Assembly: GCA_013112585.1 (NCBI GenBank)
Contig: JABFGH010000006.1
Coordinates: 62,001 to 126,000 of the forward strand
Reading direction: 5' to 3'
DNA: 64,000 nt
Origin: Ignavibacteriota bacterium
GTDB taxonomy: Bacteria; Bacteroidota; Ignavibacteria; Ignavibacteriales; Melioribacteraceae
In this document: positions 29,763 through 51,485 of the stretch, piece after piece
Position numbering within the stretch: the first letter of the stretch is position 1
Layout of the letters: the number at the start of each line of letters is the position of its first letter
Made by a program: the position numbers and the translations under genes
The notes under the pieces: model-generated
What the model saw: the letters and a program-made list of their open reading frames with translations, nothing else
The model's database searches: none
What the model was told of the DNA's origin: nothing

Positions 29763-29802
29763 AAACCTCCGAGGTTTTGAAAACCTCGGAGGTTTCTGTT
29801 TT
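29763..29802 (+). terminator. Terminator after the aminotransferase gene
   Basis: A perfect 15-bp inverted repeat, AAACCTCCGAGGTTT (29763-29777) with AAACCTCGGAGGTTT (29781-29795), with a three-base loop, is followed by CTGTTTT. It lies a few bases after the stop codon. Confidence 0.85.
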
Positions 29803-32952: not shown

Positions 32953-34491
32953 ATGCTATCCAAAGTTTATTCAAGTTCCACCTACGGCATCGATGCATTT
33001 ATTGTAGAAGTAGAAACACATTGCGAAAAACAAATTCCATCATTTACCATTGTAGGCTTACCCGATAGCGCAGTAAAAGAAAGTAGGGAACGAGTAACTG
33101 CTGCAATTAAAAACTGCGGATTTGATTTTCCATTGAAAAAAATTACAGTAAACTTAGCTCCTGCCGATATAAAAAAAGAGGGAAGTGCTTTCGACCTGCC
33201 TATTGCGATTGGATTATTAGCATCCGGTGAAACCATAAGTGATGAATTTTTAAGTGATACAATATTTCTCGGCGAGTTATCACTTGACGGAACATTGCGA
33301 AGAATTAAGGGCGGATTACCGGTAGCAGTTGAAGCAAAAAAGAGAGGACTTAAAAGAGTAATACTTCCTCTCGATTCATCAAAAGAAGCCTCAATTGTTG
33401 ACGGCATTGAAGTCTACGGAATGGAAAATCTTACACAGGTTGTTCAATTTTTATCGGGTGATTCTGAGATAAAACCAATTAAAACAAACCGGAATGAAAT
33501 TTTTTCAGCAGTGAATAAATATCATTTAGATTTTTCAGATGTGAAAGGTCAAGAGAATGTTAAACGAGCATTGGAAATTGCAGCGGCAGGCGGTCATAAT
33601 ATTCTAATGATCGGTCCGCCGGGTTCGGGTAAAACTATGCTGGCAAAACGGTTCCCAACAATATTGCCTCCTCTAACTTTTGATGAAGCTTTAGAAACAA
33701 CAAAAATTCATTCAGTTGCCGGAATACTATCGAAAGATAAAGCACTAATTACCGAACGACCATTTAGGAGCCCTCATCATACTGTTTCGGATGCGGCACT
33801 AATTGGCGGGGGTTCTTTTCCGCGCCCGGGGGAGGTTTCATTTGCTCATCACGGAGTATTATTTTTAGATGAACTGCCGGAATTCAAAAAAAATGTTTTG
33901 GAAGTAATGCGCCAGCCGATGGAAGATTTTAAAGTAACAATCAGCCGCTCTAAAATGTCATTAGAATTCCCCGCCAACTTTATGTTAGCTGCCGCTATGA
34001 ATCCTTGTCCCTGCGGATATTTTACAGACCCGAATAAAGAGTGTACTTGCAACGTAGGACAAATTCAAAAATATATGGCTAAAATATCAGGTCCGCTTTT
34101 GGATAGAATTGATATTCATATTGAAGTACCTGCAGTAAAATATAAAGAACTATCCTCTGAAGTTAAAAGTGAAAATTCCGACAGCATAAGAAAAAGAGTA
34201 ATTACAGCGCGGGAAACCCAGCAGTCAAGATATTCTGAAATAGACCACATTTATAATAATGCCGATATTGGGACCAAGGAGGTTAGAGTATTTTGCAGGT
34301 TAGATAGCGCTGGTGCTGAGTTATTAAAAATGGCAATGACAAAACTCGGCTTATCTGCACGTGCTTACGATAGAATTTTAAAAGTTAGCCGAACAATTGC
34401 TGATTTGGAACTATCTGAAAGTATCCAGCCTCAGCATATCAGCGAGGCAATTCAATACCGCAGTTTAGATAGGGAATTGTGGAATCACTAA
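32953..34491 (+). CDS. comM: YifB/ComM family Mg-chelatase-like AAA ATPase
   Basis: The 512-residue protein has an N-terminal ChlI-like domain (SSSTYGIDAFIVEVE, FDLPIAIGLL), the Walker A motif GPPGSGKTMLAKR near 221-233, the family block FRSPHHTVSDAALIGGG, Walker B LFLDELPEF, and a cysteine cluster NPCPCGYFTDPNKECTC. The C-terminal Mg-chelatase domain has RAYDRILKVSRTIADL. ComM is a hexameric helicase that aids branch migration in natural transformation in some species; here that role is an inference from family. The following DNA is repeat-rich without genes until the tRNA cluster. Confidence 0.92.
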   Translation: MLSKVYSSSTYGIDAFIVEVETHCEKQIPSFTIVGLPDSAVKESRERVTAAIKNCGFDFPLKKITVNLAPADIKKEGSAFDLPIAIGLLASGETISDEFLSDTIFLGELSLDGTLRRIKGGLPVAVEAKKRGLKRVILPLDSSKEASIVDGIEVYGMENLTQVVQFLSGDSEIKPIKTNRNEIFSAVNKYHLDFSDVKGQENVKRALEIAAAGGHNILMIGPPGSGKTMLAKRFPTILPPLTFDEALETTKIHSVAGILSKDKALITERPFRSPHHTVSDAALIGGGSFPRPGEVSFAHHGVLFLDELPEFKKNVLEVMRQPMEDFKVTISRSKMSLEFPANFMLAAAMNPCPCGYFTDPNKECTCNVGQIQKYMAKISGPLLDRIDIHIEVPAVKYKELSSEVKSENSDSIRKRVITARETQQSRYSEIDHIYNNADIGTKEVRVFCRLDSAGAELLKMAMTKLGLSARAYDRILKVSRTIADLELSESIQPQHISEAIQYRSLDRELWNH

Positions 34492-34574: not shown

Positions 34575-34616
34575 CCTGCCTGCTGCAAAGGGATACCTAT
34601 GGTACCGGTAGGCAGG
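34575..34616. repeat. Short palindromic element with nested hairpins
   Basis: CCTGCCT (34575-34581) pairs with AGGCAGG (34610-34616), enclosing a second palindromic segment with GATACC-TAT-GGTACC. A related GCCTGTCTGCCGG lies just upstream at about 34499. No T-run follows, so it does not look like a terminator. Confidence 0.55.
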
Positions 34617-34744: not shown

Positions 34745-34788
34745 CGACTACCGACTACCGACTACCGACTACCGACTACCGACTACCG
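34745..34788. repeat. Heptanucleotide tandem repeat (CGACTAC x6)
   Basis: Six perfect copies of CGACTAC plus two bases, in the non-coding region upstream of the tRNA operon promoter. The repeat ends about 27 bases before the promoter -33 element. Confidence 0.88.
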
Positions 34789-34814
34789 AAAATTATTTTT
34801 CTTCACAACTTCTC

Positions 34815-34909: not shown

Positions 34910-34992
34910 GGGCAGGCGCCAAAGCTGGAGAGTTGGGGCGGACTGTAAATCCGTTGGCTAAGCCTGAGGGGGTTCGATTCCCTCCCTGCCCA
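34910..34992 (+). tRNA. tRNA-Tyr (anticodon GTA)
   Basis: Acceptor arms GGGCAGG (34910-34916) and CCTGCCC (34985-34991), anticodon stem-loop CGGA-CTGTAAA-TCCG giving anticodon GTA, a long variable arm (TTGGCTAAGCC region) as expected for bacterial tRNA-Tyr, and T arm GAGGG/CCCTC around GGTTCGATT. Discriminator A. CCA is not encoded (ACA follows). It heads a Tyr-Gly-Thr tRNA cluster. Confidence 0.93.
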
Positions 34993-35266
34993 CATTACTC
35001 AAACCGATGAAGGAGAGTATGGAGCCTTCTCTATTCGTTTACTTCGTTGGTTTTTTCACGAAAATACTTTTAAATATATAAATGCTGATTAGATCAGCAT
35101 GCAAGTTCTTTTTGTGTTGAAATAGATTTTATTATGCGGGAGTAACCCACCAAAGGTGGACAAGCTCAGTTGGCAAAAGTTCTCCCGCTAAGCGGGATTG
35201 GTCGTAACTGTAAAATAGATTAAAGACTGATCTCTAATAGTTCCTTTTATGATGATAATAGTTTTC
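34993..35266. other. Spacer with small palindromes between tRNA-Tyr and tRNA-Gly
   Basis: Besides the broken tRNA-Gly copy listed separately, this stretch contains a perfect 8-bp hairpin ATGCTGAT-TAG-ATCAGCAT at 35082-35100 followed by CAAGTTCTTTTTG, which could act as a terminator or processing site. No coding content is seen. Confidence 0.55.
35136..35204 (+). pseudogene. Broken tRNA-Gly copy with palindrome in place of the anticodon arm
   Basis: The sequence starts GCGGGAGTAAC like the intact tRNA-Gly at 35267. It then has a 13-nt palindrome CCACCAAAGGTGG (35147-35159) and resumes the tRNA with GCTCAGTTGGC. Where the anticodon arm should be it has TCCCGCTAAGCGGGA (35183-35197), followed by TTGGTCG as in the intact gene. 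The T arm and 3' acceptor strand are absent. It cannot be a functional tRNA. Confidence 0.7.
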
Positions 35267-35340
35267 GCGGGAGTAACTCAGTTGGCTAGAGTCACAGCCT
35301 TCCAAGCTGTTGGTCGCGGGTTCGAGTCCCGTCTCCCGCT
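35267..35340 (+). tRNA. tRNA-Gly (anticodon TCC)
   Basis: Acceptor GCGGGAG (35267-35273) with CTCCCGC (35333-35339), D arm ACTC/GAGT, anticodon arm ACAGC-CTTCCAA-GCTGT (anticodon TCC), T arm GCGGG-TTCGAGT-CCCGT, discriminator T. CCA is not encoded. The cloverleaf is complete. Confidence 0.95.
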
Positions 35341-35354
35341 CAAAGATTAAAAAT

Positions 35355-35427
35355 GCTGACGTAGCTCAGTCGGTAGAGCACATCCTTGGTAAGGATGAGG
35401 TCACCGGTTCAATCCCGGTCGTCAGCT
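35355..35427 (+). tRNA. tRNA-Thr (anticodon GGT)
   Basis: Acceptor GCTGACG (35355-35361) with CGTCAGC (35420-35426), D arm GCTC/GAGC, anticodon arm CATCC-TTGGTAA-GGATG (anticodon GGT), T arm ACCGG-TTCAATC-CCGGT, discriminator T. CCA is not encoded. Two partial copies of its 3' part follow at an 86-bp period. Confidence 0.95.
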
Positions 35428-35615
35428 CAAAAAAAGTTCTTTACGTTTTGAAAAGAAAAATCAGAGCATCCCGCTGAGCGGGAAGGTCACCGGTTGAATC
35501 CCGGTCGTCAGCTCAAAAAAAGTTCTTTACGTTTTGAAAAGAAAATTCAGAGCATCCCGCTGAGCGGGAAGGTCACCGGTTCAATCCCGGTCGTCAGCTC
35601 AAAAAAAGTTCTTTA
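35401..35615 (+). repeat. 86-bp tandem repeat of the tRNA-Thr 3' part with spacer
   Basis: The segment from TCACCGG to the spacer after the tRNA recurs at 35401 (within the intact tRNA), 35487 and 35573, with an exact 86-base step. Each downstream copy has AGAGCA, then the 15-nt palindrome TCCCGCTGAGCGGGA (35469-35483 and 35555-35569), then AGGTCACCGG and the rest of the T arm and acceptor 3' strand, then AAAAAAAGTTCTTTAC. The 5' half of the tRNA is missing and the palindrome replaces the 17-nt anticodon arm. Confidence 0.88.
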
Positions 35616-35724
35616 CAGATTTTAAAAATATTTTAAGCCGATAGTTTTCGGCTTTGATTCAGATATAAGATTTAACTAATTGAAAAGTTTGAAATAGTCC
35701 AATGAAATTTTTTGGAGTTTTGGA

Positions 35725-35892
35725 ATGGCTAAAGCTAAAAATGCAAGACAAATAATTATTCTCGAAAGTACAGCAGGTACCGGTTACAGATACACAACCA
35801 AAAAGAATAAAAGAAATCACCCTGCGCGAGTTGAATATAAAAAATACGATCCAGTTGCAAGAAAGCACGTAATTTTTAAGGAAACTAAATAA
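35725..35892 (+). CDS. rpmG: 50S ribosomal protein bL33
   Basis: This 55-residue basic protein starts [18 protein letters not shown] and contains [23 protein letters not shown], the usual L33 core. It has no cysteines, so it is the zinc-free (C-) form. GGAG lies eight bases before the ATG. It sits between tRNA-Thr and tRNA-Trp and upstream of secE, a common bacterial order. Confidence 0.93.
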
Positions 35893-35895
35893 AAT

Positions 35896-35968
<73 letters not shown>

Positions 35969-35993
35969 CAACTTAATTTACCGGTAAAATGAA

Positions 35994-36179
35994 ATGAAAG
36001 AAAAAATAGTTAATTTTTTTAACGACGTTGTAAAAGAAATGAAAAAAGTAACATGGCCTACGAAGGATGAACTTAAAGAATCCACAATGGTTGTTATTGT
36101 TGTTTGCCTTATTATAGCTGCTTTTACCTACGTTATTGATATGGGAGTATCATACATAATAAAAGGAATTTTTCAGTAA
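35994..36179 (+). CDS. secE: Preprotein translocase subunit SecE
   Basis: The 61-residue protein has an amphipathic N-terminal helix with FFNDVVKEMKKVTWPTKDEL, the signature of bacterial SecE, then a single membrane helix (TMVVIVVCLIIAAFTYVI). SecE clamps SecY in the translocon. It overlaps nusG by one base (TAATG), so the two are probably translated together. Confidence 0.95.
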   Translation: MKEKIVNFFNDVVKEMKKVTWPTKDELKESTMVVIVVCLIIAAFTYVIDMGVSYIIKGIFQ

Positions 36180-51456: not shown

Positions 51457-51485
51457 GGGATGACTTTGAAAGTCATCCCGGTTTT
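51457..51485 (+). terminator. Hairpin after tuf, possible weak terminator or attenuator
   Basis: GGGATGACTT (51457-51466) pairs with AAGTCATCCC (51470-51479), followed by GGTTTT. The T-run is short, so read-through into rpsJ is likely. Confidence 0.55.

Follow-up and report, generated by a model that had tools for sequence, protein, structure and literature searches.

Partial tRNA copies with hairpin-swapped arms and a linked GIY-YIG nuclease family in Ignavibacteria suggest a probable, little-known selfish element resident in tRNA genes

Why should a bacterial genome carry, next to an intact tRNA gene, a broken copy of the same gene in which a palindrome stands in the place of the anticodon arm? 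The question is raised by a partial tRNA-Gly at positions 35136-35204 of a 64,000-nucleotide stretch of DNA (positions 62001-126000 of its contig; "the window" is this whole stretch) from the 4.94-Mb genome of an uncultured Ignavibacteria bacterium, whose best-named relatives belong to the Melioribacteraceae. Our analysis suggests that tRNA genes here are home to a selfish element of a little-known sort. The interpretation that we consider probable, with modest confidence, is that of isotype-specific, tRNA-regenerating homing-type elements of the GIY-YIG kind, in which a hairpin occupies the presumed site of cutting in a duplicated tRNA arm; the window would hold remnants of such elements without the nuclease.

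Comparison with the intact tRNA-Gly (tcc; 35267-35341, forward strand; ARAGORN and the Rfam tRNA model) shows that the copy, on the same strand, extends from the 5' strand of the acceptor to the start of the T arm, and has neither a T arm nor a 3' acceptor strand. Starting at 35136, it reads GCGGGAGTAAC, the palindrome CCACCAAAGGTGG (35147-35159), ACAAG, CTCAGTTGGC (35165-35174), further bases, the palindrome TCCCGCTAAGCGGGA (35183-35197) and TTGGTCG to 35204; the bases immediately 5' of the swapped anticodon arm have also drifted. This confirms the broken copy described in an earlier note on the sequence; the second palindrome reported there is present as well, but its place is the D-arm region, following tRNA position 11, rather than immediately behind the acceptor strand. 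Downstream of the intact tRNA-Thr (ggt; 35355-35428, forward strand; ARAGORN and Rfam), two partial tRNA-Thr copies follow on the same strand with a period of 86 bp (35463-35514 and 35549-35600), each composed of tRNA-Thr positions 21-26, TCCCGCTGAGCGGGA and positions 44-74, with the palindrome (35469-35483 and 35555-35569) as anticodon arm. This palindrome is a sister of the one in the anticodon arm of the tRNA-Gly copy, a relationship that the earlier note had already recognized. None of the window copies is called as a tRNA by ARAGORN or the Rfam model, so they are not complete cloverleaves with an anticodon. The 15-mer TCCCGCTNAGCGGGA is found at three places in the whole genome, which are the three window copies (none in a backwards control), and the 13-mer CCACCAAAGGTGG occurs once. 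Dispersed copies of the window palindrome, considered as a candidate, were rejected, as there are none elsewhere in the genome. The earlier note's implication of one palindrome moving around the genome finds no support in this search. Each copy is a local duplicate of the tRNA next to it, and the hairpins vary by species while their stems stay perfect.

When every tRNA gene of the genome was compared with its own flanks, at least ten further tRNAs proved to be accompanied by partial copies in which a hairpin interrupts or replaces the D, anticodon or T arm. These copies lie beside Pro-tgg (two), Cys, Arg-tct, Thr-cgt, Ser-gct, Thr-tgt and Phe, and also beside the Ser-gga/Ser-cga pair (three fragments), Asn (two), Lys (three in tandem) and an initiator-type Met (four in tandem), while Leu-caa is adjoined by a partial copy and a nuclease open reading frame (ORF). 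In the 28.7 kb of sequence that lies no more than 400 bp from a tRNA there are 10 hairpins of the type TCCCGN0-12CGGGA where 0.4 would be expected; 260 kb of background stretches hold 1. Over the whole genome there are 69 TCCCG...CGGGA hairpins, against 5 in the backwards control, an excess that lies partly in unrelated intergenic repeats; we do not claim that the hairpins of these repeats are the same thing as those of the tRNA copies. Dispersed intergenic repeats at L123, L124 and L125 (contigs C2 and C3), with the forms GTCATTGCGA...GGCAATCTC and GGTAGCTTCGATA...AGCTACC, have inner hairpins that are exchangeable and belong to the same types (TCCCG...CGGGA and CCGTCAGCCGACGG), and hairpin exchange may therefore reach beyond the tRNA copies. 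At another locus (L205, contig C33:39191-42400), a 3' fragment of tRNA-Lys, a GIY-YIG ORF, a hairpin-carrying Lys copy and a putative tyrosine integrase occur together, apparently a homing-type unit split by an integrative element that uses the same tRNA.

The placement of the hairpins follows rules. Automatic comparison of the loci collected from this genome and its relatives yielded 104 distinct internal replacements or insertions, with 43 in the anticodon arm, 39 in the T arm, 15 in the D arm, 7 in the variable region and none in the acceptor stem, which strongly supports the site preference that the earlier note had proposed. The position depends on tRNA isotype (0 of 5000 shuffles as high), a dependence for which shared ancestry may account in part. 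Inserts of this kind are present in 101 of the 126 partial copies adjoining tRNAs. Stems of at least 5 bp are seen in 75% of the 104 events, against 10.5% of shuffled sequences, and the longest perfect stem averages 5.9 bp (3.4 in shuffles). For 18 of 40 anticodon-arm events both ends fall within 2 bases of the base of the stem, and where the tRNA has GTTCRANT, all 31 T-arm events disrupt this motif, 20 of them precisely after GTTC. In nearly every species the tRNA-Asp copies have lost positions 51/52 to 58/59 and have instead TCCCG-n-CGGGA, with a variable interior and a perfect stem. Hairpin pair 7, which is C-G, T-A or A-T in different genomes, is paired in 13 of 15, against 5.1 in shuffles (0 of 10000 as many), and pairs 1, 2, 5, 6 and 7 covary likewise in 31 anticodon-arm hairpins; these hairpins were picked by hand, and the choice of palindromes favours pairing. 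Covariation across species suggests that the stem is under selection or else formed anew on every occasion, and it does not look like a frozen relic.

Hairpin-swapped copies recur across the whole class Ignavibacteria. At the locus equivalent to that of the window, Gly or Thr copies with swapped arms are found in L007, L011, L031, L044, L046, L052, L069, L076, L083, L089, L094, L097, L109 and L111, among others, and a strict automatic criterion finds them in 15 of 80 distinct relatives' loci. Many relatives have no copy there; their existence does not refute the earlier note's reading, because others (L011, L031, L046, L089 and L097) carry such copies at the same spot. A T-loop insert, GTTCTGCCNNAGGCATCCC, was searched in 296 genomes of the phylum and gave 25 matches in 11 genomes. 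All of the matches can be read as T loops, either of a tRNA or of a partial copy; the exclusiveness is in part a product of the pattern, which begins with GTTC and favours T loops, but the tRNA context on both sides is not. The sequence (GGTTC, TGCCnnAGGCATCCCTTCGGGA, GAATCC) corresponds to a clean 22-bp double-hairpin insertion in the T loop. A scan of phage contigs for the same insert found two tRNA-like cases and two chance matches in coding sequence, the tRNA-like sequences with the insert in their T loop being on the IMG/VR contigs L348 and L349. At three loci (L221, L223 and L231, in genomes G210 and G177), the tRNA strand 5' of the T-loop insert directly follows a reverse complement of itself (AACCAGC-G-GCTGGTT, CCCTCG-ATAC-CGAGGG and CCAACGACCGATC-CGATCGGTCGGCGG); these pairs look like the outcome of fold-back synthesis and are a possible clue to the origin of the hairpins.

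The overall interpretation of the earlier note is partly supported, and to the phenomenon belongs also something that was invisible to its author, a linked family of GIY-YIG nucleases. Their ORFs encode about 85 amino acids and lie on the same strand as the tRNA, and many of the partial copies flank such an ORF. The domain model PF01541 scores above its cut-off in this genome and in 38 of 38 relatives. This genome has seven small GIY-YIG ORFs, five of which adjoin a tRNA or a tRNA fragment, and among 80 GIY-YIG loci taken by score rank from the 38 relatives, 38 lie no further than about 1 kb from an intact tRNA, where by our own estimate about 2% would be expected to do so, and all the ORFs found there are on the strand of the tRNA. 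In a tree of 94 GIY-YIG domains, whose single branches are weak because the alignment is short, the tRNA-linked members are all on one side and the isotypes cluster, with 15 isotype changes where the minimum is 11 and the shuffled mean 33.8 (0 of 200 shuffles as low). The other side of the tree (35 rows) is a second GIY-YIG clade from the same genomes with no tRNA neighbour; its members L203 and L206 of this genome sit in the midst of dispersed intergenic repeats, a hint that the target is a different one.

We fixed before the search the prediction that Asp-type nucleases would be found beside tRNA-Asp, and profiles of the Asp and Asn types were then run against 245 genomes of the class. With the Asp profile, 16 of the best 30 loci adjoin tRNA-Asp (14 in genomes outside the profile) and 5 adjoin tRNA-Ala. 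With the Asn profile, 7 of the best 8 loci adjoin tRNA-Asn (3 not in the profile), followed by a gap in score to Met, Ser, Arg and other types. The prediction for the Asp type held in new genomes. The ratio of nonsynonymous to synonymous substitution rates is mostly 0.1-0.3, many pairs being saturated, and the nuclease ORFs are under purifying selection. In single-contig genomes, nuclease and partial tRNA form tandem arrays, of five 450-bp units at tRNA-Leu (L310) and of five 315-bp units at tRNA-Asp (L337); at L277, three units of nuclease and partial copy adjoin tRNA-Pro, with the copies 5' of the intact gene. The position of the copy relative to the ORF varies by locus, upstream in some and downstream in others. 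At the window-equivalent locus, a Gly-type nuclease lies directly 3' of tRNA-Gly in seven relatives (L011, L041, L046, L052, L063, L309 and L329). The nuclease gene is a same-strand, isotype-specific neighbour of the tRNA, and sits at its target only if the tRNA gene is that target.

A model of cutting, repair, resistance and homing that we infer from this pattern would run as follows. A small free-standing GIY-YIG nuclease, specific for one isotype, would cut the intact tRNA gene at the T loop, the anticodon arm or the D loop, depending on the isotype. Repair off an occupied locus would copy in the nuclease gene, with the intact tRNA gene left at one flank and, at the other, a partial copy of this tRNA, which would act as the far homology arm for the other end of the break. 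The hairpin, by replacing the presumed cut site in the partial copy, would make it resistant, and unequal repair could amplify the unit into tandem arrays. The three copies of the window would be derivatives without the nuclease. The closest known parallel is SegB, a GIY-YIG homing endonuclease of phage T6 that cuts inside tRNA genes with a preference for RAWTSGAAC, and that is required for the tandem amplification of its tRNA segment via homologous recombination (PMC13096335). The reverse complement of the motif, GTTCSAWTY, fits the T loop GTTCGAATC, and this fit, together with the 31 T-arm events that all break GTTCRANT, is the ground on which the linked proteins are proposed to cut their cognate tRNA gene.

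Several observations weigh against this homing model. The window has no nuclease ORF, and this genome's partial copies mostly lack one too (Thr, Pro, Gly, fMet, Arg). No separate DNA-binding domain is evident in the nuclease ORFs. Next to the nuclease, the intact tRNA still has the presumed cut site, no protection is seen, and the arm replaced in the partial copy remains present in the occupied locus. Resistance would need just any base change, and a perfect, covarying hairpin is more than the model needs; it leaves the palindromic form unexplained. Taken alone, the tRNA-Gly copy of the window matches the intact gene only as pieces of about 10 bases, which counts for chance resemblance; we regard it as real because of the order of its pieces, the tRNA-Thr copies, and the clearer tRNA-Gly copies that relatives have at this place, such as that of L031 (positions 1-28, a hairpin and positions 44-48).

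The best surviving alternative, which we nevertheless hold to be unlikely, is that two unrelated processes coincide, namely tandem duplication of tRNA genes, which yields spare copies, and insertion into these of short palindromes, akin to REP or to miniature inverted-repeat transposable elements, with a preference for hairpin-forming DNA; GIY-YIG genes would merely gather near tRNAs. The absence of the nuclease from many copies, the like palindromes in dispersed repeats away from tRNAs, and the mobile hairpin elements known from mitochondria (PMC2800124) all suit such an explanation. It fits poorly with the count of 10 TCCCG...CGGGA hairpins near tRNAs where 0.4 were expected, with the isotype dependence of the insert position, and with nuclease clades that track isotype. 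Same-place hairpins also differ in sequence by species, and a single mobile family fails to account for this.

Less likely still is a role of the hairpin copies as RNA, in which tRNA-like transcripts would bind or regulate the GIY-YIG protein, as an antitoxin-like decoy or a cis-regulator, or would answer an RNA-cutting GIY-YIG enzyme. The covariation of the stems across species, with both sides changing, is what a selected structure would show, and the arrays, with a repeated RNA and a nuclease ORF, resemble RNA-antitoxin arrays. It also agrees with this alternative that homing nucleases of T4, including segB, have their translation controlled by hairpins (PMC2988022). Against it, the window copies have no clear advantage over shuffles in folding (z -1.1 and -2.1), copies lie 5' of the ORF at some loci and 3' at others, and many have no ORF.

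We consider it very improbable that the copies are attachment-site scars left by tyrosine-recombinase islands or prophages. A partial beside an intact tRNA is the usual sign of such integration (PMC9897764), and one Lys fragment of this genome is apparently next to an integrase (L205), but at the window locus there is no ORF of at least 100 amino acids between 34491 and 36179 and no integrase beside the copies, fragments of the 5' end occur besides those of the 3' end, and attachment-site recombination does not make internal hairpin swaps or tandem arrays. Neutral decay or chance resemblance, for which the piecemeal match of the window's tRNA-Gly copy might speak, is refuted by the set of 104 events with its recurrence, perfect stems, boundaries and covariation, and has a negligible probability.

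If the homing model is provisionally adopted, how does the system compare with those already known? Like SegB of phages T4 and T6, it has a GIY-YIG nuclease gene amid tRNA genes (PMC13096335; PMC2988022). Unlike that phage protein, which concerns a whole tRNA region, the ORFs here are chromosomal and short, each isotype has one subfamily or a few, and the ORFs are accompanied by partial tRNA copies that have a hairpin as an arm. They do not join the SegB family by the searches made: none of the NCBIfam models scored above cut-off for three of the nucleases, giving no useful name, and an Asn-type nuclease had no tblastn match in phage records. With tRNA-integrating islands and prophages they share a regenerated target tRNA and a fragment left behind, but the units here measure 65-450 bp, have no integrase, lie on either side of the tRNA, are often in tandem and have an arm of the fragment swapped. 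Short double-hairpin elements of comparable build are found in Allomyces mitochondria, and dRS3 of Neisseria and the bacterial REP/RAYT sequences are dispersed palindromes of similar form; unlike the latter two, the palindromes here have no fixed sequence and are concentrated in tRNA copies. The hairpin elements of fungal and sponge mitochondria, short, GC-rich, often double, are likewise invaders of genomes (PMC2800124), while here it is the arms of spare bacterial tRNA copies that are replaced, with a nuclease family linked to them. The only mention of tRNA in a 2006 survey of the GIY-YIG superfamily concerns an enzyme fusion (PMC1564403). Neither hairpin-swapped tRNA copies nor an isotype-specific pairing of GIY-YIG genes and tRNAs in bacteria came up in our searches of the open-licence literature.

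Free-standing homing nuclease elements in tRNA regions are already known, and the part with a fair chance of being categorically new is the hairpin half-copy. As a more tentative proposal, these loci could represent a new kind of minimal mobile element of bacteria, whose persistence depends on restoring the very tRNA gene under attack, with isotype-matched nucleases and with a hairpin half-copy that would be required and selected for its structure, as DNA or RNA, more than a scar. If the homing model is true, many of the lineage's tRNA pseudogenes and orphan GIY-YIG genes would be parts of one selfish system, the recently described SegB-type amplification of phage tRNA genes would extend to bacterial chromosomes, and candidate enzymes cutting tRNA genes by isotype, with predicted targets, would become available. 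The covarying hairpin also makes it testable how palindromes arise or persist at presumed break sites.

The window copies belong to a cluster (34910-36160) of tRNA-Tyr, tRNA-Gly, tRNA-Thr, rpmG, tRNA-Trp, secE and nusG that is kept in relatives, with variable spacers. Its most upstream member is tRNA-Tyr (gta; 34910-34993, forward strand; ARAGORN), and tRNA-Trp (cca; 35896-35969, forward strand; ARAGORN and Rfam) lies downstream of the copies. Other palindromic or repeated sequences are present in the window. A short tandem array of GACTACC units precedes tRNA-Tyr on its 5' side (34748-34790), and 3' of the ORF ending at 34491, CTGCAAAGGGATACCTATGGTACC within CCTGCCTGC...GGTAGGCAGG (34579-34602) resembles a degenerate 22-bp double hairpin nested in another palindrome. 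Between ORFs at 29763-29795 there is a hairpin, AAACCTCCGAGGTTTTGAAAACCTCGGAGGTTT, with a perfect 16-bp stem, and another hairpin, GGGATGACTTTGAAAGTCATCCC, is found at 51457-51479.
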